The notes under the pieces are model-generated. The model was given only the letters and a program-made list of their open reading frames with translations, had not been told where the DNA came from and did no database searches. Shown here piece by piece: positions 36,691-54,900 of a DNA stretch of 64,000 bases. The DNA comes from Bacillota bacterium (GTDB lineage Bacteria; Bacillota; Sulfobacillia; Sulfobacillales; JAIMBI01), in assembly GCA_021846505.1 (NCBI GenBank), contig JAJZWV010000003.1, positions 1 through 64,000 of the forward strand. The letters run 5' to 3'. Each line of letters opens with the position of its first letter. Position 1 is the first letter of the stretch. A program made the position numbers and the translations under genes.

Positions 36691-37993
36691 TCAGGGGCTT
36701 CCGCAGCGACCGGTCCCCACCGACCTGCGGCCACCCGCGCAGCCGGCAGGGCCGGTGCGGGCGGTCCACGCCCCCAGCAGGGCAGCCAGGCCGATAAACC
36801 CGGCGAAGATAGCGGTGGACGCTGCCGCGCCGAGATAGTCACTGGCGATCGCCAGCCCGACGACGGGCAGGCCCACCCCGAGGTAGGCCGCGCAGTAGTA
36901 GGTGGCCAGTAGTCCGCCGCGGTCGTCCTTGGAGGCGAGGCGATTGACCACCCCAAGGCTGCCCATAGCGGCCAATCCGACCCCGACCCCACCGACGACC
37001 GCGGCGGCGAGCATCACCCCGATCGATGATGTGCGGAGGGCCATCACCACCATGGCCAGGGCGGGCAGCAGCACAACTAGGCCCGTTCGGACAGCCCTGT
37101 TGCGCTGCAGGCGGCGTACGAACAGCTGGGTGAGCGTCGCCACGGCGAAGAGGACACACACGACCGCCCCGGCCACCAGAGGACTGTGGATATGCAGGTG
37201 GAGGGACAGGAATGACGGTACGAGGGACGCAAACAGGCCGAACACCGCGAACGCCGCGAACGCCGCCGCCAGTGCCGCGACGAAGCTGCGGTTGCCCCGC
37301 GGCGGCCAGACCGGCAAGCGGAGAACCAGCCGGCCCCTAGTCCCCATGGTCTCGGGGAGGGTGGCTAACGCCACCGAGGCGGTGACTAACACACCCAAGA
37401 AGACAGAGAAGGGCAAGGTCGTGGGCGCCGGGCCGTACTGGGCGAGCCCGCCGGCGAACAGCGGCCCCAGACCGAATCCGCCCAGGCTGGCTCCTGTGGT
37501 CGCCCGGGTGACTAGCCCGGCCCGGCCCGGTGCCAGGTCGGCGAGGTAGGCCGCGCCGGTCGCAAGCACTAGGGCCGGTGGAGATCCCTGACAGGAACCG
37601 CCCGGCGTACAGCCCGGCGACCGTGGGAACGGTCAGGAACACGGCGGTGCTCGCCAGCGCCGAGGCGATGGCGATGCCCAGCACGGGGCGGCGGCCGATG
37701 GCGTCCGACAGCCGACCCAAGAGCAGCAGGCCCCCGAGCGTTCCGGCGGCGTAGACGGCGAAGATTGCGGTCAGCACCCCGTTGGAGAAATGTAGCTGCG
37801 CCTGCCAGAGCACGTAGAGGGGGGGGACCGTGCCACCCAACACGGTGGCGAACAGTACGCCGGCCGCTAACCAGAACACTACACCAACCCGGCGCTGCCC
37901 CTCGGCACCCTCACCGACCACTAGGCCGAGCTCTCCAGCCCATCGCGTCGCCGACCGGGGGACGCCCTGTTTTGACGAGCCACGCGAGCCCAT
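36691..37993 (-). pseudogene. MFS transporter interrupted by a 1-nt frameshift
   Basis: N-terminal half in ORF 37337..37993 (...GRLSDAIGRRPVLGIAIA...AGRFLSGISTG) continues in ORF 36691..37569 (LATGAAYLADLAPGRAGLVTRATTG...); switch at about 37568-37578. Confidence 0.85.
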
Positions 37994-38769: not shown

Positions 38770-39273
38770 TCACGCGTGGTCTGAGGCAGACTCCCAGCTG
38801 TCCCCCGCGAGATCAGCTGGGTCGTCTTCGTCGGTCACCAGCTGATCCGCAGCGCTGTCAAATACCACATACCCGCAGTGCGGGCACGTCAGCTCGACGC
38901 CCTCCTGAGAAAACAGATGTTCCGCATAATAGCTCGGCTGGTCGCACTGGGGGCACTCCAGCTCCACATAGGCTTCGTCGTCATCCAAGTCACCGAGCTG
39001 CGCGGATGGCGCGCCGTCCCCCAAGATAGCCTCATCGCCGTCGTCCTCGTCGTCGTACAGAGACTCCTCGAGACACAGCAAGTCGTTGTCGATTTCCTCG
39101 ACGTAATCTTCCACCTCACGCTGCCCTTGCCGAAGTTCGTCCACGTCCCGCGCCACCGCCCGCAGCACTTGGATCACTTCAGCCAGCACCTTGCCCTCTC
39201 GACCCGAGTCCGCCAGGTCATAGCGCTCCGCGAGCCCCGCCACGTAGGCCACCTTGCGCCGCAGTTCGGCCAT
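38770..39273 (-). CDS. CD1247 N-terminal domain-containing protein (zinc ribbon)
   Basis: MAELRRKVAYVAGLAERYDLADSGREGKVLAEVIQVLRAVARDVDELR... ECPQCDQPSYYAE...LTCPHCGYVVF. Confidence 0.85.
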   Translation of the reverse strand: MAELRRKVAYVAGLAERYDLADSGREGKVLAEVIQVLRAVARDVDELRQGQREVEDYVEEIDNDLLCLEESLYDDEDDGDEAILGDGAPSAQLGDLDDDEAYVELECPQCDQPSYYAEHLFSQEGVELTCPHCGYVVFDSAADQLVTDEDDPADLAGDSWESASDHA

Positions 39274-39408
39274 GCGCTCCCTCCTCCGCGGCCTTAACGT
39301 GCACGGCGCCCCCACCTTTCATACGGCTCACGCGGCGGTGGGCCGCCAGCGCCTTTTCAAAATGTTTGCCATGCCATCGCCGGGCGTGATCCGCAGCGCG
39401 CGGGCCCC

Positions 39409-39857
39409 TCATGCCGGCTGGACATCGACCGCCCCCACCCGGTAGTCGAGATCGTCGCGCACGGTGCGCCCGATGAAGCACTGATCCCGGGCCGCCGCGG
39501 CCGCCGCCAGATATTCCGCGCGCCGGGCGCAGTCGCCGCCCACAATCGTCGGATGGACGGCAATCGCACTGAAACGAGCCGCGCGCGGATAGTCCGACAC
39601 CACCCCCTCGGTTCCGAGATCCACCCGCTCGAGGGGAGGCCGGCCCGCTCAATTACCCGATGCAGCGTGCCGCTGTAGCACGACGCCACGGCCGCCAGCA
39701 GCAGCTCCTCAGGGCTGGTGCCCTCCCCGCGGCCCCCCATCGTCTCCGGTGCGCTGTACCGAACCGCGTGGCCGCTGAGAAACAGCGTGCCGCTCCCCGC
39801 GCGGCCCGAGCCTTCCCATACCGCACCCACCGCAAAGTTCAAATCGGCCACTCTCAT
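39409..39857 (-). pseudogene. OsmC family protein with a 1-nt frameshift
   Basis: MRVADLNFAVGAVWEGSG...GEGTSPEELLLAAVASCYSGTLHRVIERAGLP | ERVDLGTEGVVSDYPRAARFSAIAVHPTIVGGD...RDQCFIGRTVRDDLDYRVGAVDV; frame break at GGGG 39633-39636. Confidence 0.85.
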
Positions 39858-39882
39858 CACCCTTTCTTGACCTGACCCCACC

Positions 39883-39898
39883 GGTGATCCCCCGCACA
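39883..39898. promoter_or_regulatory. Crp/Fnr-type operator-like site (degenerate)
   Basis: gGTGAtcccccGCACa between the OsmC gene and the gene at 39961. Confidence 0.4.
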
Positions 39899-39960
39899 GT
39901 TGCGCCGCCGCCGATGCCGCACCGTGGCCCTGACCAGTCTGGCACATAGGAGGCCGCGCA

Positions 39961-40338
39961 GTGATTTGGGCACACACTCCCAAGTGGACCGGGGCCGAAT
40001 GGGTGGCGCGCGTCGACGTGCGAGAGGGGGTATACCAGCGGTCGGGCTATCCGGTCACCGTGACCTACCTGGGCCCGGGCCCCGCCGACGCCGCGGAGAC
40101 GCTGCGCCAGGTCGTCGAGGCGCTGGTGCGCCTCCACCTGCGCAAGGGAGGGCTCGCGCCCGGCGGCATGCTGGTCAACTGGCGCCACACCCAAGACGGT
40201 GCCTTTGGCCAGGATGGGCTGGACACGGTCCGCCCGCTCATGGCGGCGCTGGACCAGCAGCTGGCGCTCATGTCTCACTGCGACGGCCATGGCTACTACC
40301 ATCGCCGACAGCCGCGCGGACCGAGGATCCGGGATTGA
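39961..40338 (+). CDS. Hypothetical protein
   Basis: 125-aa ORF preceded by a purine-rich ribosome-binding-like stretch (aggaggccgc); ends SHCDGHGYYHRRQPRG. Confidence 0.55.
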   Translation: MIWAHTPKWTGAEWVARVDVREGVYQRSGYPVTVTYLGPGPADAAETLRQVVEALVRLHLRKGGLAPGGMLVNWRHTQDGAFGQDGLDTVRPLMAALDQQLALMSHCDGHGYYHRRQPRGPRIRD

Positions 40339-40348
40339 CGCCCATGCG

Positions 40349-41605
40349 CTAGCCACGGAGGCGCGACCCGGCGGCATAGCGCCTGGTGGCGGCCAGACGG
40401 ACCATCCGCACCCCCGCCGCCGCCACCGCCGCGTCGGCAGCGAGGAGCCCGGCCGCCCCAACGCATACCAGCCCCGGCACCCCGAACGCCATTCCGGCCG
40501 CTGCCGCCAGCACCAGGCCCGGCACGGCCATGGCCAATCCGAGCGCCAAGGCGGGCGGCCACAGCTCTGACAGGTGCGGCAGCGTGCGCGCATCCGCTCG
40601 GCGGCTGGCGCTGACCCATATCCCGAACGGCCAAATCTTCTGCCCGAAGCCCCACAGGCTCGTCAGGAAGACGCCCAGCACCAGCGGCGCCACTGCAGCC
40701 CCGGCCCGGGCGTGCGGATCGGCCAGAGCCACCGTACCCCACAGCCAGACCATCGCGGCAAACAGCCAGCCGGACCGCATCAAGAGGCGGGGGCCATCGC
40801 CGCGGCCCAGCCGCCCGGGCCGCCGGGCCCGCCAGACCCCGTGGAGGTAGAGGGCCAACGCCGCCGTGCCGCTCGCCCACGCGGCGCCGTCGAGCAGCCG
40901 CCAGCCCAGCGCGATGCCCACCGCGGCGGACCCGATGGCGCCGTGCATGAGCAGCACGATGGACCGGTATCGGCCGGCCTTCGGGCGCGTCACCTCAAAC
41001 ATCGGCACCAGCCGCCCCGACACCCCCATCCAGGTCAGTCCCAGCCAGCCGCCCACGGCGACCACGATGTGAATGCCCAGCACGCGGCTAGTGGGCAGGC
41101 TCGCCAGCACCCGCACCAGGTGCTCATCCAGCATGATTCCCAGCACCACGGTGGCGGCAAGGTACGCCAGCCCGCTGCGCACAAAGGCAAGCGGCGCGCG
41201 CGCCTCCGACGCGGTGTGCAGCGTCGCCGCCATCACCCAGAGAAACAGCCCGGCACCCACAGCCAGCAGGCCGCCGCCCGCTATCAGGAGGGGGGGCGAC
41301 GCCCACGCCAGCCCGGGCACAAACAGCAGCAGGGCGGCGACCCAGGCCACCCCCTGCCAGCGAGCGAGCCGCGCGCGGGCCAGCGGGCGCCCGGAGATGA
41401 CCGGCACCCACTGGTACAGCGCCCCCATGAGTGAGCTGGTCAGAAGGCCCAGCGTGAAGGCGTGGACGGTGGCCAGGACGGGAGGCGCGCTGAAGTTTCC
41501 CTCCGCGAGCAGGCGGGCGTGCGCCACGGCCAAGCCAAAGCCTGCAGCGCCGGCCGCGGCTCCTGCCCCAAACAGCAGCAGCGGAACGGCCGCCGGCGGC
41601 GCCAT
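40349..41605 (-). CDS. 12-TM NnrS/COX1-like membrane protein, paralog A
   Basis: VHAFTLGLLTSSLMGALYQWVPVIS and GIHIVVAVGGWLGLTWMGVSGRLVPMFEVTRPK motifs; hydrophobic throughout. Confidence 0.75.
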   Translation of the reverse strand: MAPPAAVPLLLFGAGAAAGAAGFGLAVAHARLLAEGNFSAPPVLATVHAFTLGLLTSSLMGALYQWVPVISGRPLARARLARWQGVAWVAALLLFVPGLAWASPPLLIAGGGLLAVGAGLFLWVMAATLHTASEARAPLAFVRSGLAYLAATVVLGIMLDEHLVRVLASLPTSRVLGIHIVVAVGGWLGLTWMGVSGRLVPMFEVTRPKAGRYRSIVLLMHGAIGSAAVGIALGWRLLDGAAWASGTAALALYLHGVWRARRPGRLGRGDGPRLLMRSGWLFAAMVWLWGTVALADPHARAGAAVAPLVLGVFLTSLWGFGQKIWPFGIWVSASRRADARTLPHLSELWPPALALGLAMAVPGLVLAAAAGMAFGVPGLVCVGAAGLLAADAAVAAAGVRMVRLAATRRYAAGSRLRG

Positions 41606-41657
41606 GGGGAGGCGCGGGGCACCGGTGGCCGTCCGTGCCGACGGCACGCGCGCCCGC

Positions 41658-41927
41658 CTACGCGGACGCGCCGCGCCGCGTGATGCGAATGGCAAACCGC
41701 GCCGGGCCCGACTCCACGTAGTCGAAGTGGAATGCCTCCGGCTGCTCAGCTTGCAGCTGGTAAAACAGCGGCTTGGGGTCATGGTCGTTGATTAAAAGCG
41801 CCACGTGTGTGGGCGGCAGGGCCTCCAGCACATCAAAAATCACCTGATGGCGCACGGGCGGCGGCAGGACCGGCGTGTTTATCACGAGGGCCGGGCTCAC
41901 CTCGTTCGCGGATGGCGACGTCGTCAT
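41658..41927 (-). CDS. DUF2249 domain-containing protein
   Basis: LPPPVRHQVIFDVLEALPPTHVALLINDHDPKPLFYQLQAEQPEAFHFDYVESGPARFAIRITRRG. Confidence 0.85.
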   Translation of the reverse strand: MTTSPSANEVSPALVINTPVLPPPVRHQVIFDVLEALPPTHVALLINDHDPKPLFYQLQAEQPEAFHFDYVESGPARFAIRITRRGASA

Positions 41928-42040
41928 CGTTCAAATCCCCCTCTAGCATGCCTGGGTGGCTCGGACCGCATAGTCAGGCAGCGCCACGCAGCAGAGCCTC
42001 GCGATCACCGCCTAGGGTGCCGCGGCCTCAGCGGCGCCAC

Positions 42041-42056
42041 CGTGATCACCGTCACA
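42041..42056. promoter_or_regulatory. Crp/Fnr-type operator (GTGA-N6-TCAC)
   Basis: cGTGAtcaccgTCACa in the divergent DUF2249/DUF2249 intergenic region. Confidence 0.6.
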
Positions 42057-42096
42057 CAGAGGCCCGCCTCTTGGGGCCGAGCCCCGCTGTCGGCAG

Positions 42097-42112
42097 TGTG
42101 AGCGGAATCACG
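42097..42112. promoter_or_regulatory. Crp/Fnr-type operator (GTGA-N6-TCAC)
   Basis: tGTGAgcggaaTCACg, 56 bp from the preceding site. Confidence 0.6.
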
Positions 42113-42222
42113 GTCGCATGGGGCGGCCGCCTCCACGATCGGTGGGCAGTGAGCGTGTGTGGACGGTGTCGGCGCGCTCATCGGCATCGGGCCATTGGCA
42201 GGATTTGCGAGGAGGAGCACCC

Positions 42223-42585
42223 ATGTTGCACCACCGGGCCGTCGGCAGGGGTCGATGGACCTTTGGCACGGCCGCCTTTGGCCGCGCATCAGCCCAAGCG
42301 GTCGGACGCTATCGCCCGGCGGGCCGCCGGGGGCTTTCGCGCAGGGGGCGCGGCAGCACGATTCATGACTTTCGGGGCTTAGAGCCCCCCGAGCCGCTGC
42401 TGGCGACGCTGGCGCTGCTGGACCAGAGGGGTCCGGCGCAGCCCGCTGTGGTCGTGATGTATGACCGCGAGCCCCATCTGCTGTTCCCCGAGCTGCACCA
42501 GCGCGGCTGGCACTGCCGAGTGGCCCGCGATCCGCGGGGGGTCATCGTCCGCATGTGGCCCGGCCGCCCGGGGGCCCCCTCGTGA
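42223..42585 (+). CDS. DUF2249 domain-containing protein
   Basis: HDFRGLEPPEPLLATLALLDQRGPAQPAVVVMYDREPHLLFPELHQRGWHCRV; Shine-Dalgarno aggagg upstream of ATG 42223. Confidence 0.75.
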   Translation: MLHHRAVGRGRWTFGTAAFGRASAQAVGRYRPAGRRGLSRRGRGSTIHDFRGLEPPEPLLATLALLDQRGPAQPAVVVMYDREPHLLFPELHQRGWHCRVARDPRGVIVRMWPGRPGAPS

Positions 42586-43838
42586 TCGCCCCGAAGCCGG
42601 GTGGGGCCACGGGAGCCCCGCCGCTGTCCCTGCCGCTGCGCTTTTTCCTGGCGGGGCTCACGGGGCTAGCGGCCGCGCTCCTGGTCTTAATCGGGCACGT
42701 CGGCGCCCTGCTGAGATTCCAATACGGGAGCGGCGCGCTGTTGGCAGCCACCCACCTGATGACGCTGGGCTTTATCTCCATGGTCATGATGGGGGCCATG
42801 TACCAGCTCGTGCCCGTCGTGTTCAACGTGAAGCTCTCCAGTGTGCGGCTAGGGGCCTGGCACTACGCCGCGCTGGTGCCAGGGGTGGTGCTGATGGTGT
42901 CGGGGTTTCTGACCCATGTGGCGGCCTTCCTCATGGTGGGCGGGACCCTGGTGGTGCTGTCGGTCACTCTGTTTCTGCTGAACGTGGCCCGCACGCTGCC
43001 GAACCGGGCCCAGTGGGGTCTCTCGGGCTGGTTCGTGGCGACGGCCCTCGGCTACCTCGGCTTCACGGTGTCGATGGGCTGGCTCCTGGCGTGGAATCTA
43101 TCCCACCCATTTCTTGCGGGCGACGGGCTCGCCGTTCACCTGGTACTGGGGGGCGTCGGCTGGTTTGCCCTGGCGCTCATGGGGGTGTCGTACAAACTGC
43201 TGCCCATGTTCTCGCTGACCCACGCTCAGCCACGGTGGGGCTGGTGGGCCTACGGGCTCTTGAATGCGGGGGTGTGGATCGTCGGGGCGGGCACGTGGTG
43301 GTGGCCCCGGCCCGCGGCAGCGTTGGGCGCCCTGGTGGCAGCCGCGGCCCTCGTGCTGTACGCCGGCGACATTCGCCGTCTGTGGCGGCACCGCCTGCGC
43401 CGGCAGCCCGACCCCGCTGTCTACCTGGCCTTGGCCGGCACCGTGGGCGGGCTGGCCACGGTGGGGGCGGCCGCCTGGGCGGCGGCCGGGGGACCCTGGA
43501 GTTTAGTGGTGTTCTTGTTCTTCTACGGATGGATGGCGGCGTCGGTCCTCGGCTACCTCCAGAAACTCGTCCCATTTTTGGTCTGGCTGCACCGCTACGG
43601 GCCCCACGTGGGCCGCAGCGCCGTGCCGCGGATGCGCGACCTCCTTCAGGAGCGCTGGAGCTGGATGGAGGGCGCTCTCTATGCCGCGAGCACGGCAGGA
43701 GCCGCCATGGGCTTGGCCACCGCCACGCGGGACCTTCTCCTGGCCGGCCTCTCTGGGATGCTGCTGGCAGTCCTGTGGCTGCTGGCGGTGGTGATTTGGG
43801 TGCTGCGGCAGCCCAGCGTGCCGGCCGCCGCGCCGTGA
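42555..43838 (+). CDS. 12-TM NnrS/COX1-like membrane protein, paralog B
   Basis: ATHLMTLGFISMVMMGAMYQLVPVVFNVKLS and VHLVLGGVGWFALALMGVSYKLLPMFSLTHAQ. Confidence 0.8.
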   Translation: MARPPGGPLVIAPKPGGATGAPPLSLPLRFFLAGLTGLAAALLVLIGHVGALLRFQYGSGALLAATHLMTLGFISMVMMGAMYQLVPVVFNVKLSSVRLGAWHYAALVPGVVLMVSGFLTHVAAFLMVGGTLVVLSVTLFLLNVARTLPNRAQWGLSGWFVATALGYLGFTVSMGWLLAWNLSHPFLAGDGLAVHLVLGGVGWFALALMGVSYKLLPMFSLTHAQPRWGWWAYGLLNAGVWIVGAGTWWWPRPAAALGALVAAAALVLYAGDIRRLWRHRLRRQPDPAVYLALAGTVGGLATVGAAAWAAAGGPWSLVVFLFFYGWMAASVLGYLQKLVPFLVWLHRYGPHVGRSAVPRMRDLLQERWSWMEGALYAASTAGAAMGLATATRDLLLAGLSGMLLAVLWLLAVVIWVLRQPSVPAAAP

Positions 43839-44569
43839 GCGGCGCCGCGGCCCCTCGCCCGCGCGGCCGGCCGGCTGGTGCGGCTCCGCCGCCCACCACC
43901 CGAGACCCTCCGCCTGCCATCGACGACTGGCAGAGCTTAGAGCGGGTGTACCGAGCGTTCCCGTCATCCAGCGGCCAGCGGTCCCGGTGGAGGTGGGCGG
44001 CGGCTCGGGTGGCCGCGCGACTGGACGCCCATGGCCACCACGGCCTGCCGGCGCTGGTGGCAGGCCTCGTCCACGCGCGGCTGGCGACAGCCCTGTTAGC
44101 GGCGGGCTGGCGCGCCAAGTCGGAGCTGCGAGCTCGCTCGGTGCTCTGCCTGGGCTGCCATGCTGGCTTGGAAGTGCGCATGCTGCGCGACTTCGGAGTT
44201 CCACGCGTCCATGGGGTGGAACTTCGATCCCTCGTGGTCCGCGAATCTGTCGAAGAGGGGCTGGTCGGCGCGGCGGACATTTCCGTGGGAAACTGGTGGG
44301 CGTGGCTGGAGGCGCCCCCGCCTGGCGGCCGGATCGCGTGGGATGCGATTGTGGCACTGGCCCCACAAGACTTGGCCCTGGACCGCCTGTGGACAGCGGC
44401 GGAGCCCCACCTGGCTCCGACCGGCCGTGTCGTGGTCGTGGCCCACCCGGCGGAAGTGGTCCGTCCAGCCCCTGAGTGGCGCACGGGCCCAGCCCTGGAG
44501 GGCACGATGCAGTGGTACGCCCGTGAGCGGCCCGCATCGGACCGGGGCCACCGATCCCCTGCGCCATAA
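43835..44569 (+). CDS. SAM-dependent methyltransferase-like protein
   Basis: SVLCLGCHAGLEVRMLRDFGVPRVHGVELRS... VGNWWAWLEAPP...WDAIVALAPQDLALDRLWTAAEPHLAPTGRVVVVAHP; GTGA overlap with paralog B. Confidence 0.6.
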   Translation: MSGAAAPRPRGRPAGAAPPPTTRDPPPAIDDWQSLERVYRAFPSSSGQRSRWRWAAARVAARLDAHGHHGLPALVAGLVHARLATALLAAGWRAKSELRARSVLCLGCHAGLEVRMLRDFGVPRVHGVELRSLVVRESVEEGLVGAADISVGNWWAWLEAPPPGGRIAWDAIVALAPQDLALDRLWTAAEPHLAPTGRVVVVAHPAEVVRPAPEWRTGPALEGTMQWYARERPASDRGHRSPAP

Positions 44570-44639
44570 GTGGCTTGGACGCCGAGTCCCGGGTCACCCC
44601 ATCGTGCGACAGGGCCCGCCCAATTCCGGGGCCGCGCGG

Positions 44640-45919
44640 CGCGCTGCGCCGCCATCGGCGATGCGGGCCGCCGCCGGCTCAGCCCAGTGGTGCCGGGATG
44701 GCGGGCCGCGCGCGTCCCGCCGCACCGGCGAGCTGACGCCCTCCCTCCTCATCGCCCTAGCCGCCTCCCGGGCCAGCCGCAGGAGCGCGCTCGCCACCGA
44801 CTGCACTACCCGCGCGGCGAAGCGGTGGCGTTCGGCTGTCACCGGGGGGCGGCCCTCGTCGCTGCCCGTGCGGATGCCGCCGTCCAGTGGAATCTGTGCC
44901 AGCAGAGGCACCCCCAAGGCTGCGGCCAGTGCCTGCCCACCTCCGCGCCCGACCGGTTCCCACCGCTCGCCGCAGGGGCAGGCCGCATAGCTCATGTTCT
45001 CCATCACGCCTAACACGGCCCGGCTCAGCCGGGCCGCCGCGCCCCCGTGCGTGCCGCCACCTGGGCGGCCGCGGGCTGAGGGGTGGTCACGACGGCGATC
45101 TGCGCCATCGGCAGGCGCTGGGGGAGGTCAAGGGCGGTGTCGCCAGTTCCCGGCGGCAGGCCTGCCAGCAGGCAGTCGATCGGCCCCCAAGCCACCCCTT
45201 CGAAAAACTTCCGCATCACCGTGCCCAGCATGGGTCCGCGCCACATGATGGGATCGCGCCCGGCGACATCCTCATCGACACCAGTTCCACCCCATGCCTC
45301 TGCCAAGGTTCGATGCGGCCCGTCGCATCGGTGCCAGGCAGAGAGGCCGCCCCGAACATGCAGCCCTGGCTGAATCCGCACAGGTCCACATCAATTAGAC
45401 CGACGCGGGCCCCTTGGTGCGCCAGTGCGGCGGCCACATTGGCCGTGGCGGTCGACTGGCCGACCCCCCTTTGCCGCTGGCAATCCCAATGACCGGGACA
45501 GAGGAGCCGCCCGGCCGTGTCAGCGCAGCCAGCGGTGCCCCGCCACCCGATGCCGGCCGGACACTCTCGCCGGCCGCGCGCGCCGCCACCGCCTCGGCAT
45601 GCCCCCGCTCGGCGCTCGTCATGGGCTGCCCCGCAACGGTCACCCCATCCACTCCAGCGAGGGCACCGACCGCGGCCACGATCGCGTCCGCCACGCCGGG
45701 GTGCAACACCCCGCCCGCTCGAACGACCGCCACGTCCAGCGACACCCGCGCCTGCCCAGCGGTGGCTCGCGCGCCGTGTGCCTCTCCACCCCTCCCACCA
45801 TCCGTCCTCTCAATCGCTATGTTGCGCAGCATGCCCGGCTCCAAGAGACTCCGGTGGAGCACCGGGGCTTGGACAGCGCTCAGCGCGGCGCGCACCTCCC
45901 GAACCGTGGGCACAGCCAA
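44640..45919 (-). pseudogene. mrp: Mrp/ApbC-family Fe-S carrier ATPase with at least three frameshifts
   Basis: DUF59 N-terminus MAVPTVREVRAALSAVQAP...VDGVTV, GIASGKGG | VGQSTATANVAAALAHQGARVGLIDVDL | GRDPIMWRGPMLGTVMRKFFEGVAWGPIDCLLAGLPPGTGD | RAVLGVMENMSYAACPCG; each break is at or next to a short G/C homopolymer. Confidence 0.9.
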
Positions 45920-46448: not shown

Positions 46449-47837
46449 ATGAGTCTCAGTGCCTTGGCGCGCCTGGCCGAGTGCAGCGCCCATCGCGAGA
46501 ACACCACCGAACGCTTTGAGAATGGACGGGGGTGCCGTGTGGCCGATCAGTTGCGCCAGCCTGCTCGCTATCGGCCCAGCGTCAATGTCGCCCGAGCGCC
46601 GCAGGCCAGCGTGCCTCTGCCCTTCTTGGCCGGCGGCTGGGTGTGGCTGCTGTGGGCGCTGGGCCAGCTGGCGTCGGCTCGCGGCTTCGTGGCCGCTCGG
46701 GACTGGGGGGCCCCTGCCCTGATTGCCGCCGTGCACGGCGTGACGCTGGGATTTCTGACGTTGACCATGATGGGGTTCCTCTATCAGTGGGTGCCGGTCG
46801 TCTTCGACGTGCCCGCCTTGCCGCGCTGGTTTAGCTGGTCGGAGGGCGGCGTGTATGCCGCTGGGCTGGTGCTGTTTGAGGAGGGCTGGCTCCGGAGTCG
46901 GCTGCCACTCCTCGCGGTGGGAGGCGCGCTGCTGTCTTTGGCGCTGCTGGCGCTGGCCAGTGGGATCGCCGCCCGCGTGGCCTCCAGCCGCCGGCCCTGG
47001 GATACGGTGAGCACCGGCGTCGTGCTGGCACTCCTGGGCCTCACGGCGACCTGGCTCTTGGGGTTTCGGATGGCTTGGACCATCGCGCATGGCCAGTCGC
47101 CCAACCAGTGGCTCGCCCTGCACATCGCTGTGGCGCTGGTAGCCTGGGTGGCTACGCTGGTGTCTGCCGTCCAGCTAAAGCTGGCCCCCATGTTTGCGAT
47201 GGCCCGGGTGCACGGGGCGCTGGCCGCTCTGCCCACGGCGGCGCTGTGGGTGGGCCTCAGCCTCGAGGGCGCATCGGTTTTGGCCCGCCTGCCGTGGGCC
47301 GCTGATGTGGCTGCTGCCTGCTGGCTAGCGGCCTCCGCCCTGGCCATGGGGCTCATCATGCACCTGCGCCGGGGCGGCCGCGCCCCCCGGCGCGATACGG
47401 TGCTGGCCGCGGCGCTGGCAGGCTGGGGCCTATGGGCCGGCGCCGCCGTGATGCTGCCCTGGGCCCCGCCGGTGTCTGTCGTGCTAGGGCTCGGCGGGGC
47501 GGCCGCCATGGTCCTCGGCTATCAGTCACGGCTCGCGCCCTTTTTCTTGGCGCTGGTCACCGCCCGGCGGTCCGCCGCCGTCGATCGGGCATTCTTCCTG
47601 GCACGGGCCATGAGCTCGGCCCTTGCGCCCCGCGTGGCGGCCGCCGCCTGCGCGGCGGGGGCCCTGCTGGTGGCGGCCGGCGCCGCCTGGCACCAGGCGG
47701 ACTGGGTGGGAGCCGCCGCCGCGGTGATGGGCCTGGGCTGGGCCCGGGTCGTGGGATCCATGGTCGGACAGGCGAGGAGGGCCCGGCGGGCGGCGCCCGC
47801 CCCGCGGCCTCCGGAGCCCCCTTCGCCGCCGGCATAG
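46449..47837 (+). CDS. 12-TM NnrS/COX1-like membrane protein, paralog C
   Basis: AVHGVTLGFLTLTMMGFLYQWVPVVFDVPALP and ALHIAVALVAWVATLVSAVQLKLAPMFAMARVHG; start codon uncertain. Confidence 0.75.
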   Translation: MSLSALARLAECSAHRENTTERFENGRGCRVADQLRQPARYRPSVNVARAPQASVPLPFLAGGWVWLLWALGQLASARGFVAARDWGAPALIAAVHGVTLGFLTLTMMGFLYQWVPVVFDVPALPRWFSWSEGGVYAAGLVLFEEGWLRSRLPLLAVGGALLSLALLALASGIAARVASSRRPWDTVSTGVVLALLGLTATWLLGFRMAWTIAHGQSPNQWLALHIAVALVAWVATLVSAVQLKLAPMFAMARVHGALAALPTAALWVGLSLEGASVLARLPWAADVAAACWLAASALAMGLIMHLRRGGRAPRRDTVLAAALAGWGLWAGAAVMLPWAPPVSVVLGLGGAAAMVLGYQSRLAPFFLALVTARRSAAVDRAFFLARAMSSALAPRVAAAACAAGALLVAAGAAWHQADWVGAAAAVMGLGWARVVGSMVGQARRARRAAPAPRPPEPPSPPA

Positions 47838-47847
47838 ATTGCCCGCG

Positions 47848-47863
47848 TGTGATCGCGATCACG
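47848..47863. promoter_or_regulatory. Crp/Fnr-type operator (GTGA-N6-TCAC; perfect 14-bp palindrome core)
   Basis: tGTGATCGCGATCACg, about 85 bp upstream of the DUF59/SufT start. Confidence 0.65.
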
Positions 47864-47944: not shown

Positions 47945-48268
47945 ATGACCGACAGCGTGACGGGCTCCTGGACGCGCGAGCGCGTGGAAGGCCTGCTGGA
48001 ATCTGTGCTGGACCCCGAAGTGGGGCTCAACATCATGGAGATGGGCCTGGTGTACAACGTCGCGGTCGACGCCCAGGCCAACGTGGAGGTGCTGATGACG
48101 CTGACCACGCCGGGGTGCCCGATGCACGGGTCCATCGCGGAGGGCGTGCAGCATCTGCTGGAGGATCAGCCGAACATCGCCGCCGTCGCGGTGGAACTCA
48201 CTTTCGACCCACCCTGGGAGCCGACGATGATAAGCCACACGGCCCTCAAGAAGCTGGGGTGGGAGTAG
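47945..48268 (+). CDS. Metal-sulfur cluster assembly factor (DUF59/SufT-like)
   Basis: VEGLLESVLDPEVGLNIMEMGLVYNVAVDAQANVEVLMTLTTPGCPMHGSIAEGVQHLL...VELTFDPPWEPTMIS; Shine-Dalgarno aaggagg. Confidence 0.92.
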   Translation: MTDSVTGSWTRERVEGLLESVLDPEVGLNIMEMGLVYNVAVDAQANVEVLMTLTTPGCPMHGSIAEGVQHLLEDQPNIAAVAVELTFDPPWEPTMISHTALKKLGWE

Positions 48269-48316: not shown

Positions 48317-48827
48317 ATGGAGCCTAGCCTGTCGCCCGGCCGCGACAGCCCGATTGCCGCGGTCATCGCTGGCACCTGGGAGGACCCGGACAGCTGGCGG
48401 GCGCTCCGGCGCCGGCTGCGTGGCCTGAAGACGCCAAGCCGTGCTCATCGAAAGTCCCCAGGCGCCCACCCGCCTGCTCGCCTGGCTGGCCCCCGAAGCG
48501 CCCGAGGCGGCCGTGCAGGTGCTGGCAGCGCCCGATGGGCCCTTTCGGGGTGTGCTGTGCGCTCGGCCAATGCCCTCGACACCGGACGCCGCCGCGCGAG
48601 CCGTGCAGCAGGTGCTGTCGTCCAGCCCGCGCGGCGCCCTGGTGAAACTGTCCGCGTTTGACAAGGAGGGCGGCGCCCGCCTGGCGGCCGCGACCTGCGT
48701 ACGGCTGCCCCCTGAATCTTCCACTCGCGGCGGCTGGATCGCCTCCTGCAACGGCCCACCCACGCTTTTCACGGCCGCAGGTCCTGACCGAGCGGCGGGC
48801 GCCGCTACGCGCCGCCCCGGGGCGTAA
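48317..48827 (+). CDS. Hypothetical protein, apparently split over two frames
   Basis: MEPSLSPGRDSPIAAVIAGTWEDPDSWRALRRRLRG then LIESPQAPTRLLAWLAPEAPEAAVQVLAAPDGPFRGVLCARPMPSTPDAAARAVQQVL in another frame. Confidence 0.35.
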
Positions 48828-49035
48828 ACGTCACCAGCCAGGACTCATCGGGCCACTCCACCGCCTCGGCGGCGTAGCCCTGGCCGCTCAGGAGATTGAT
48901 TAAGGGATCAGGTCGAAACGTGGCCACCAGCTCCCATGGCTCACCCGCCGCCAGGCCCGCCTGAAACGCCATGATGCTCTCGAAGGGCTCCCGCCCATCT
49001 TGCAAATCCTGCCGGACATCCAGCCGCCGTGCCAT
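48805..49035 (-). CDS. DUF2249 domain-containing protein
   Basis: RLDVRQDLQDGREPFESIMAFQAGLAAGEPWELVATFRPDPLINLLSGQGYAAEAVEWPDESWLVTFTP. Confidence 0.85.
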   Translation of the reverse strand: MARRLDVRQDLQDGREPFESIMAFQAGLAAGEPWELVATFRPDPLINLLSGQGYAAEAVEWPDESWLVTFTPRGGA

Positions 49036-49114
49036 TCTCTGCGCCTCCTTGCTGTAGGCGCGCGCGCCGCCGGCGCGCCGCCCGCCCATCATCGGCCGAC
49101 GCGGATCGGCCGGC

Positions 49115-49130
49115 CGTGATCCGGATCACA
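49115..49130. promoter_or_regulatory. Crp/Fnr-type operator (GTGA-N6-TCAC; perfect 14-bp palindrome core)
   Basis: cGTGATCCGGATCACa between the divergent DUF2249 and DUF2892 genes. Confidence 0.65.
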
Positions 49131-53413: not shown

Positions 53414-54151
53414 CTATAGAGGGAGAGGGGACGTGTGGCCGCTGCGGCCGAAGCCTTCAGCGTCCACGCCTGCCTCAGCCAGCGCGGCCAGCGCCTCGGC
53501 ATCCACAATCCGAACGTGCCGATAGGCGCCGTCCACCCATCCCCGATGGTGGAAGTCAGACAGCACCCGGCTCACCGTTTCGCGGGTGGTGCCTACCATG
53601 TGCGCCAAGTCCTCATGCGTGAGCGCCACATCGGGTCCCTGGCGGGCCATGAGGGTCGAGAGAATGACCGCGAGCTGGACGGCCACGGGGCGCCCCCGCG
53701 TGTCGCTCACCAGCTCTTGGATATACCGCAGGCGCTGGGCCAGCATGCGGCTCACCGCTTCCGCAAAGGCGGGCACCGTGCGGTGGAGGCGGAGGAAGCG
53801 CTCCCGCTCCACCCAAAACAGGCGGGTGTGCGGATCCAGCGTGCGGGCCGCGGAGGGGTAGCCCGACCCATCCCAAATCCCCGCGATGCCCACGATGTCG
53901 CCCGGCTGCCACACGCCGGTCGTGTGGATGACGCTGTCCGGTCCGGTGCGCTCGATGGCGGTACGCCCCTCGAGGATGACCCACAGGCCGGTGGTGGGCT
54001 CGCCCTGCTGAAATACCCACTCGCCGAGGCGATAGGTGCGCATGACACCGCTTTCGGCCAGGAGCGGTGCAGGCACCCCCGAAAACAGCGGCAGGCTCTC
54101 AGGCTTAATAGCGGCCGGCGGCGTCATCGGCGCGTGCTGTGCTTTGTCCAT
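53414..54151 (-). CDS. Crp/Fnr family transcriptional regulator without FNR-type cysteines
   Basis: cNMP-binding fold GEWVFQQGEPTTGLWVILEGRTAIE...GDIVGIAGIW; HTH THEDLAHMVGTTRETVSRVLSDFHHRGWV. Confidence 0.92.
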   Translation of the reverse strand: MDKAQHAPMTPPAAIKPESLPLFSGVPAPLLAESGVMRTYRLGEWVFQQGEPTTGLWVILEGRTAIERTGPDSVIHTTGVWQPGDIVGIAGIWDGSGYPSAARTLDPHTRLFWVERERFLRLHRTVPAFAEAVSRMLAQRLRYIQELVSDTRGRPVAVQLAVILSTLMARQGPDVALTHEDLAHMVGTTRETVSRVLSDFHHRGWVDGAYRHVRIVDAEALAALAEAGVDAEGFGRSGHTSPLPL

Positions 54152-54180
54152 AGCGCCAGTGTAGCGCGTGCGGGCGCCAT

Positions 54181-54196
54181 CGTGATCGTCCGCACG
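54181..54196. promoter_or_regulatory. Crp/Fnr-type operator-like site (degenerate)
   Basis: cGTGAtcgtccGCACg, 30 bp upstream of the Crp/Fnr start codon. Confidence 0.4.
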
Positions 54197-54285
54197 GCAA
54201 GGCCTGACCACCGTGGCATGATGGGGGCCGGCGCCGGTCAGGCGCGCAGCGGTCTAATGGCCCGATGGGGGACAAGGAGTGAGCG

Positions 54286-54605
54286 TATGGCGCTGGACGT
54301 GAATGGCCGCCTCCAAGTGGCGCGGCTGGACAGCGTCCCCGATGGCGGGGGCCGGGCGGTAACGGTCAGTGGCCGCGACGTGGCGCAGTGGCGCCGCGGC
54401 CAGGCAGTCTTTGCAACGGATGATGTCTGCTCGCACATGCAGGCGGAATTGGCCGCGGGCACCGCGAACGGGTTCGCCATCACCTGCCCGCGGCATGGCC
54501 GGCAGTTCGCTATAAGGACGGGGGCGGCCATCAAGATGCCCCATTGCGGTGTTTGCGGTCACCGTGCTCGACGGGCGCGTGTACATCGATCCATCAGTGC
54601 TGTGA
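54286..54605 (+). pseudogene. Rieske [2Fe-2S] ferredoxin-like protein with a 1-nt frameshift
   Basis: FATDDVCSHMQAELAAGTANGFAITCPRHGRQFAIRTGAAIKMP then, after one extra C in CCCC near 54540, IAVFAVTVLDGRVYIDPSVL*. Confidence 0.8.
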
Positions 54606-54659
54606 CGCCACCGGCCGGGGCACCAGCGGCGCCACACGGCCTCAGTGAAGGACCCTTGA

Positions 54660-54900
54660 GGATGGCCGTCGCCAACACCAGGTCCCCACACACTTGCCCC
54701 ACTCGCTGAAGCCTTTGTTGGACGTGAGCGCCAGGCTGCCGGTTTCGTACCGCGCGCTGACCGCGCGGAAGAACCGGTGCGCCTCCAGCCGGTCGAGCGC
54801 CAGCTAGCCCACTTCATCGATGCAGAGGACCTTCGGCCGTGTGTACACCGCCTCGGCCCACCGGCCCACTTCGCCGAGGTGAAGCCGAGCACCCAAGTCG
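54660..54900 (-). pseudogene. IS21-family IstB ATPase remnant with in-frame TAG
   Basis: LGEVGRWAEAVYTRPKVLCIDEVG*LALDRLEAHRFFRAVSARYETGSLALTSNKGFSEWG. Confidence 0.8.

Follow-up and report, generated by a model that had tools for sequence, protein, structure and literature searches.

In our study, a 64,000-nucleotide stretch of contig JAJZWV010000003.1 from a Bacillota bacterium (the window) was found to contain a cluster of three genes for DUF2249 proteins and three genes for membrane proteins with twelve predicted transmembrane (TM) helices. Judged by sequence, the 12-TM family belongs to the heme-copper-oxidase superfamily and fits the described three-unit "heme-copper-oxidase homology" (HCOH) class. 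We lean towards reading the cluster as a membrane-heme module, composed of DUF2249 and HCOH proteins and controlled by a Crp/Fnr-family regulator, for nitric-oxide (NO) handling and iron-sulfur (Fe-S) protection. The six genes were arranged as follows.

40349–41605, minus strand: 12-TM HCOH paralog A, with a weak COX1 match of its own (8.9e-5) and the two invariant histidines (TM2, TM6)
41658–41927, minus strand: DUF2249-A, NDHDPKPL type, DrpA-like (PF10006, 69 bits; AlphaFold (AF2) fold)
42223–42585, plus strand: DUF2249-B, divergent type with an FPEL motif and a basic N-terminal extension of about 40 amino acids (PF10006, about 29 bits)
42555–43838, plus strand: 12-TM HCOH paralog B (12 helices in the AF2 model; likely start GTG 42582)
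about 46539–47837, plus strand: 12-TM HCOH paralog C, start approximate (homology to A and B; tree)
48805–49092, minus strand: DUF2249-C, REPF..ATFRPDPL type (PF10006, 44 bits)

The first-pass annotation of this region had described two divergent modules of DUF2249 plus a 12-TM protein. All of its genes were present at the coordinates given, as were the 295-bp gap between DUF2249-A and DUF2249-B (41928–42222) and two GTGA-N6-TCAC sites 56 bp apart within it. Both modules are real, but the number of genes was under-counted, as three of each kind are present. A genome-wide search of the 3.58-Mb genome, a 96% complete draft in which absence is not proof, found three DUF2249 genes and three 12-TM matches, all inside the window. 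Paralog B does overlap the 3' end of DUF2249-B, but probably by 4 nt and not by 31: a GTG at 42582, in frame with paralog B and overlapping the DUF2249-B stop as GTGA, is the probable start in place of 42555. Because of this overlap, translation of the pair is probably coupled.

Paralogs A and B were 34% identical over 208 amino acids (E 2e-24), and paralog C was 35% identical to B over 205 and 33% identical to A over 184 amino acids. No convincing Pfam or NCBIfam model was found for any of the three in the copies searched. Exactly two invariant histidines, in TM2 and TM6, were found in 72 of 72 near-full-length relatives, and in 79 of 79 sequences once alphaproteobacterial and Thermus members were added. 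Only two alignment positions exceeded 35% histidine, and the further invariants of the 72 sequences were Gln (in YQ.VPV), MF and F. The family profile matched the cbb3 oxidase subunit CcoN (PDB 3mk7; E 9.4e-7), unit 1 aligning with the last four CcoN helices and the invariant TM2 histidine ('VH') falling on the second histidine of CcoN GHVHAG, the low-spin heme ligand. COX1 was matched by 6 of 67 family members (best 6.5e-7). The three four-helix units of the family aligned with one another (E 2.9e-7, 2.8e-6 and 6.8e-9), with the histidines of units 1 and 2 in register. The AF2 model of paralog B (8 sequences; pLDDT 74, pTM 0.76) contained 12 helices, which confirmed for this paralog the number first annotated, and its nearest PDB folds were cbb3 and aa3 subunit I, with TM-scores of 0.63–0.66 and Foldseek E values of only 0.01–0.1.

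HCOH proteins reportedly (Pei, Li, Kinch and Grishin 2014, Protein Sci 23:1220) possess 12 TM helices in three four-helix units and two conserved histidines, and occur in a denitrification context. The window family resembles these proteins in all of these features; the presence of three paralogs in one cluster and the operator and regulator are new in comparison. The HCOH study is cited in a later paper (PMC11218638, as its reference 36) as having connected DUF2249 to the heme-copper oxidase superfamily. The function of the pairing had first been considered undefined; the 12-TM protein is recognisable as HCOH, and a link of DUF2249 to the heme-copper superfamily and to denitrification has been published before.

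The fold and repeat unit are common to the window family, cbb3 CcoN and the NO reductase NorB, but four of the six metal/heme histidines of the latter two are absent from the window family. A true oxidase or NO reductase catalytic subunit was ruled out on this ground; lacking the ligands of CuB and of the high-spin heme, HCOH cannot be either enzyme. NnrS is likewise a 12-TM, heme-copper-oxidase-related protein of NO-responsive regulons and adjoins HCOH in alphaproteobacterial loci, whereas its WHAHEM and HTGR motifs are absent from the window family and such loci carry distinct NnrS genes in addition to HCOH. Canonical NnrS (PF05940) was rejected by Pfam scores, as paralogs A, B and C had no match at E<1; NnrS was matched by 9 of 67 family members at E<1 (best 1.6e-4), and comparison of the 12-TM family with the NnrS profile gave E 0.0098 and a probability of 4%. 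No NnrS was found in the 61 genomes of our survey (the window genome and 60 relatives), in a search that had no positive control.

Both families were present in 42 of these genomes, DUF2249 alone in 3, the 12-TM family alone in none and neither in 16 (Fisher 5e-12). DUF2249 was found within 1.5 kb of 48 of 74 12-TM genes and within 5 kb of 61 of them (41 stretches), and in same-strand pairs it nearly always lay upstream of the 12-TM gene. The divergent layout of the window was also seen in G004 and G006. Elsewhere in the phylum, DUF2249 neighboured the 12-TM gene in 6 of 7 tested genomes with strong 12-TM matches. A plasmid search (P0001) found alphaproteobacterial 12-TM genes, annotated as 'hypothetical protein'. 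Of the six plasmid loci inspected (Mesorhizobium, Shinella, Ensifer, Gemmobacter, Aminobacter and M. loti), all contained DUF2249 directly behind the 12-TM gene, five contained a 'metal-sulfur cluster assembly factor' (SufT) behind DUF2249, and all contained nirK, norB/norCBQD or nosZ within 9 kb, often with NnrS. On a Thermus thermophilus plasmid the order was narGHI, drpA, drpB, then the 12-TM gene (199 bits against the family model) and SufT. A hypothetical protein of 144 amino acids between drpB and protoglobin in Thermus (L113:10052-10486) weakly matched the 12-TM model (25 bits, E 9e-9, 17 proteins), and is perhaps, by this match, a single-unit HCOH protein.

The first-pass annotation had suggested that the DUF2249 and 12-TM proteins work together and had proposed a survey of gene neighbourhoods, with a lack of recurrent adjacency speaking against the idea. 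Adjacency was found to recur across the order, the phylum, Alphaproteobacteria and Thermus, which supports at the level of gene order that the two may act together. The proximity of DUF2249 to hemerythrin and NO/denitrification genes, stated there, holds.

Within the survey, 23 of 61 genomes contained true narG, and 22 of these 23 were HCOH-positive (Fisher 4e-4, uncorrected for descent). In G037, G048 and G041 no more than about 4 kb separated narG from an HCOH gene, and NirK-like genes were found inside or beside the HCOH clusters of G009, G056 and G048. An NO-forming NirK and an NO dioxygenase have been reported from Sulfobacillus acidophilus (PMC4378227).

The conserved neighbours of the pairs were Crp/Fnr (17 genomes), SufT-like PF01883 (12), DUF488 (12) and OsmC (9), followed by CMD (8), cupin (7), Rieske ferredoxin (5) and hemerythrin (4). 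In the most compact cluster (G007), an HCOH gene on the minus strand was followed by Crp/Fnr, DUF2249, SufT, two DUF2249 genes and an HCOH gene on the plus strand. In the window, an OsmC gene was found among the cluster genes and a Rieske-domain gene further right beside the Crp/Fnr regulator gene, together with the following.

44594–45919, minus strand: Mrp/NUBPL-type Fe-S carrier NTPase in three reading frames (PF01883 and PF10609 fragments)
47946–48268, plus strand: SufT-like metal-sulfur cluster assembly factor, start ATG (PF01883, 57.7 bits)
53414–54211, minus strand: Crp/Fnr-family regulator (PF00027, PF13545 and PF00325; alignment)

The three DUF2249 genes of the window represent three types, each with orthologs in sister genera. 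Against PF10006, DUF2249-A scored 69 bits and DUF2249-C 44 bits; DUF2249-B, with orthologs in L004 and L005, is a divergent member right at the Pfam cut-off of 29.5 (28.7 bits alone, 29.6 in its frame). The AF2 model of DUF2249-A showed the element order beta-alpha-beta-alpha-beta-beta. Its best Foldseek matches included TusA, SirA-like and YeeD structures, all non-significant (E 0.02–0.13); for TusA the TM-score was 0.55 (E 0.08), and other folds scored similarly.

Four GTGA-N6-TCAC sites were found in the window against 0.55 expected, and all of them lie within this cluster.

42042–42055: GTGA-TCACCG-TCAC, centred about 121 bp upstream of DUF2249-A
42098–42111: GTGA-GCGGAA-TCAC, centred about 118 bp upstream of DUF2249-B
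47849–47862: GTGATCGCGATCAC, before the SufT-like gene
49116–49129: GTGATCCGGATCAC, upstream of DUF2249-C

In 540 kb of the relatives' loci the site occurred 100 times, against 3–8 times in simulated sequence, and a site was present at most 400 bp upstream of 60 of 88 module operon 5' ends, against 7% of random stretches. The unspecified positions were also found to be symmetric (GTGAYCNNGRTCAC). The site pair of the divergent gap was conserved in G004 and G006, in the same layout and spaced by 51 and 58 bp, and was retained in L042 and L045, which share the divergent layout. By this enrichment in the sequences, the GTGA-N6-TCAC site is a genuine operator. Genome-wide counts exceeded those of the reversed pattern in the window genome (G000; 62 vs 27), G009 (75 vs 7) and G017 (68 vs 18), and the regulon thus extends beyond this cluster. 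The FNR box TTGA-N6-TCAA was rejected as the operator, as it was not enriched (6 observed vs 2–9 simulated). A scan of the divergent gap for sigma-70 promoters and terminators found none.

The Crp/Fnr gene lies about 5 kb from the cluster. Its product contains a cNMP domain, a Crp helix-turn-helix domain and an R-E recognition helix, which matches the GTGA-N6-TCAC sites, and has no FNR-type cysteine cluster. R-E recognition residues go with TGTGA sites, and the sites of HcpR/DNR-type regulators are of the wTGTGAnnnnnnTCACAw type (PMC1274295). By domains and motifs the window regulator resembles these regulators, which likewise do not contain the FNR cysteines, and we infer that it would bind the GTGA-N6-TCAC sites. 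A Rieske [2Fe-2S] domain gene (54212–54709, plus strand) adjoins the regulator gene, likewise in L038 and L040.

The Crp/Fnr-controlled membrane-heme module that we favour is supported at the sequence level by the families themselves and the way they pair, by the invariant histidines of TM2 and TM6, by the operators and the regulator gene, and by the repeated presence nearby of genes for Fe-S assembly factors, hemerythrin, Rieske ferredoxin and nitrogen-oxide metabolism. In the proposed mechanism, a signal of NO or low O2 would cause the regulator to bind GTGAYCNNGRTCAC and turn on the pairs; HCOH would carry one heme b between the TM2 and TM6 histidines, and DUF2249, with a putative TusA-like fold, would dock on its cytoplasmic face. 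By binding or relaying NO or electrons, the pair would protect or re-load respiratory enzymes and Fe-S enzymes, SufT/Mrp carrying out the Fe-S step. NO handling and protection from nitrosative stress would accompany denitrification and would not require it. The HCOH-DUF2249 module of the window genome is not denitrification itself, as no narG or NirK was found there; the retention of the module in a genome without evident denitrification speaks for a part in NO handling or protection and not in respiration.

Several observations weigh against this explanation. For 13 of the 74 HCOH genes, the stretch read contained no DUF2249 at a distance of 5 kb or less, and partners are not strictly fixed, as DUF2249-A is paired with HCOH-A here and, in the sister genus, with the ortholog of HCOH-C. 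The narG statistic does not take phylogeny into account, and HCOH is present in half of the relatives without narG as well. No true NarG, NirK or NnrS was found in the window genome (the NnrS search being without a positive control), and the source of NO is not evident. Heme binding is deduced from two histidines only, and DrpA of T. thermophilus has been reported to be periplasmic (PMC6282519), which conflicts with cytoplasmic docking. In the tree, paralog C grouped with the HCOH that in the sister genus is linked to DUF2249-A; a one-to-one rule between DUF2249 type and HCOH clade held for pair B and was rejected for A and C.

The module could instead be a nitrate or nitrite sensor, in which DUF2249 signals the nitrogen oxide in the manner of DrpA/DrpB and HCOH serves as a membrane anchor or signal transducer. 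DrpA and DrpB contain DUF2249 domains and are encoded in a nitrogen-oxide respiration locus with HCOH and SufT downstream, and their loss makes nar/dnr expression independent of nitrate (PMC6282519). DrpB, however, carries DUF1858 as well, and no nar operon was found in the window genome. We consider a sensor unlikely: true NarG was found neither in the window genome nor in about 19 further HCOH carriers, a Crp/Fnr regulator is available in any case, and the SufT, Mrp and hemerythrin neighbours are ill-suited to a pure sensor. Still more unlikely is a membrane chaperone for the assembly of terminal oxidases, NO reductase or NirK, or for heme/copper delivery to them: HCOH adjoins norCBQD, nirK and hemN in Alphaproteobacteria, and SufT and Mrp are themselves assembly factors, but the window genome retains three copies, although a single PF00115 oxidase and no NirK were found in it. 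A redox or sulfur relay of the TsuA-TsuB kind, with a TusA-fold protein taking over cargo from the membrane protein to which it docks, is very improbable: the DUF2249 model weakly resembles TusA/SirA and YeeD and sulfur oxidation is usual in Sulfobacillus-type acidophiles, but the recurrent context is nitrogen oxides and not sulfur, and a sulfur-carrier role is unlikely because no conserved cysteine was found in the DUF2249 proteins of the window.

Returning to the membrane-heme module, its most far-reaching form is in our opinion doubtful. In that form, HCOH-DUF2249-SufT would stand on its own in non-denitrifying acidophiles as a membrane-heme system for sensing or capturing NO, and would drive the protection or re-loading of Fe-S clusters. 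If true, this role would be a function so far assigned to no heme-copper-superfamily protein nor to DUF2249. The cluster shows the DUF2249-HCOH pair outside denitrification, and its regulator, operator, pair and Fe-S factor form a compact testable set for settling both functions. The records inspected give DUF2249 and its 12-TM partner no more than a domain number or the label 'hypothetical protein', although the two recur together in nitrogen-oxide loci of three phyla. The 12-TM family merits a Pfam/NCBIfam model, none being present in the copies searched.

The Mrp/NUBPL-type gene is split over three frames, either as a decayed gene or by an assembly error. The OsmC (39218–39983, minus strand) and MFS (36691–37993, minus strand) genes also appeared to be frame-shifted, which suggests indel errors in the draft assembly. 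A small conserved protein without a Pfam family (39961–40338, plus strand) was found beside HCOH/DUF2249 genes in five genomes (the window; L037, L039, L041 and L042). The protein encoded after HCOH-B (43838–44569, plus strand) contained a Rossmann-like glycine motif and had no Pfam match; a similar protein of the LERVYRxFPSS type adjoins hemerythrin/cupin genes in L039 and L071.

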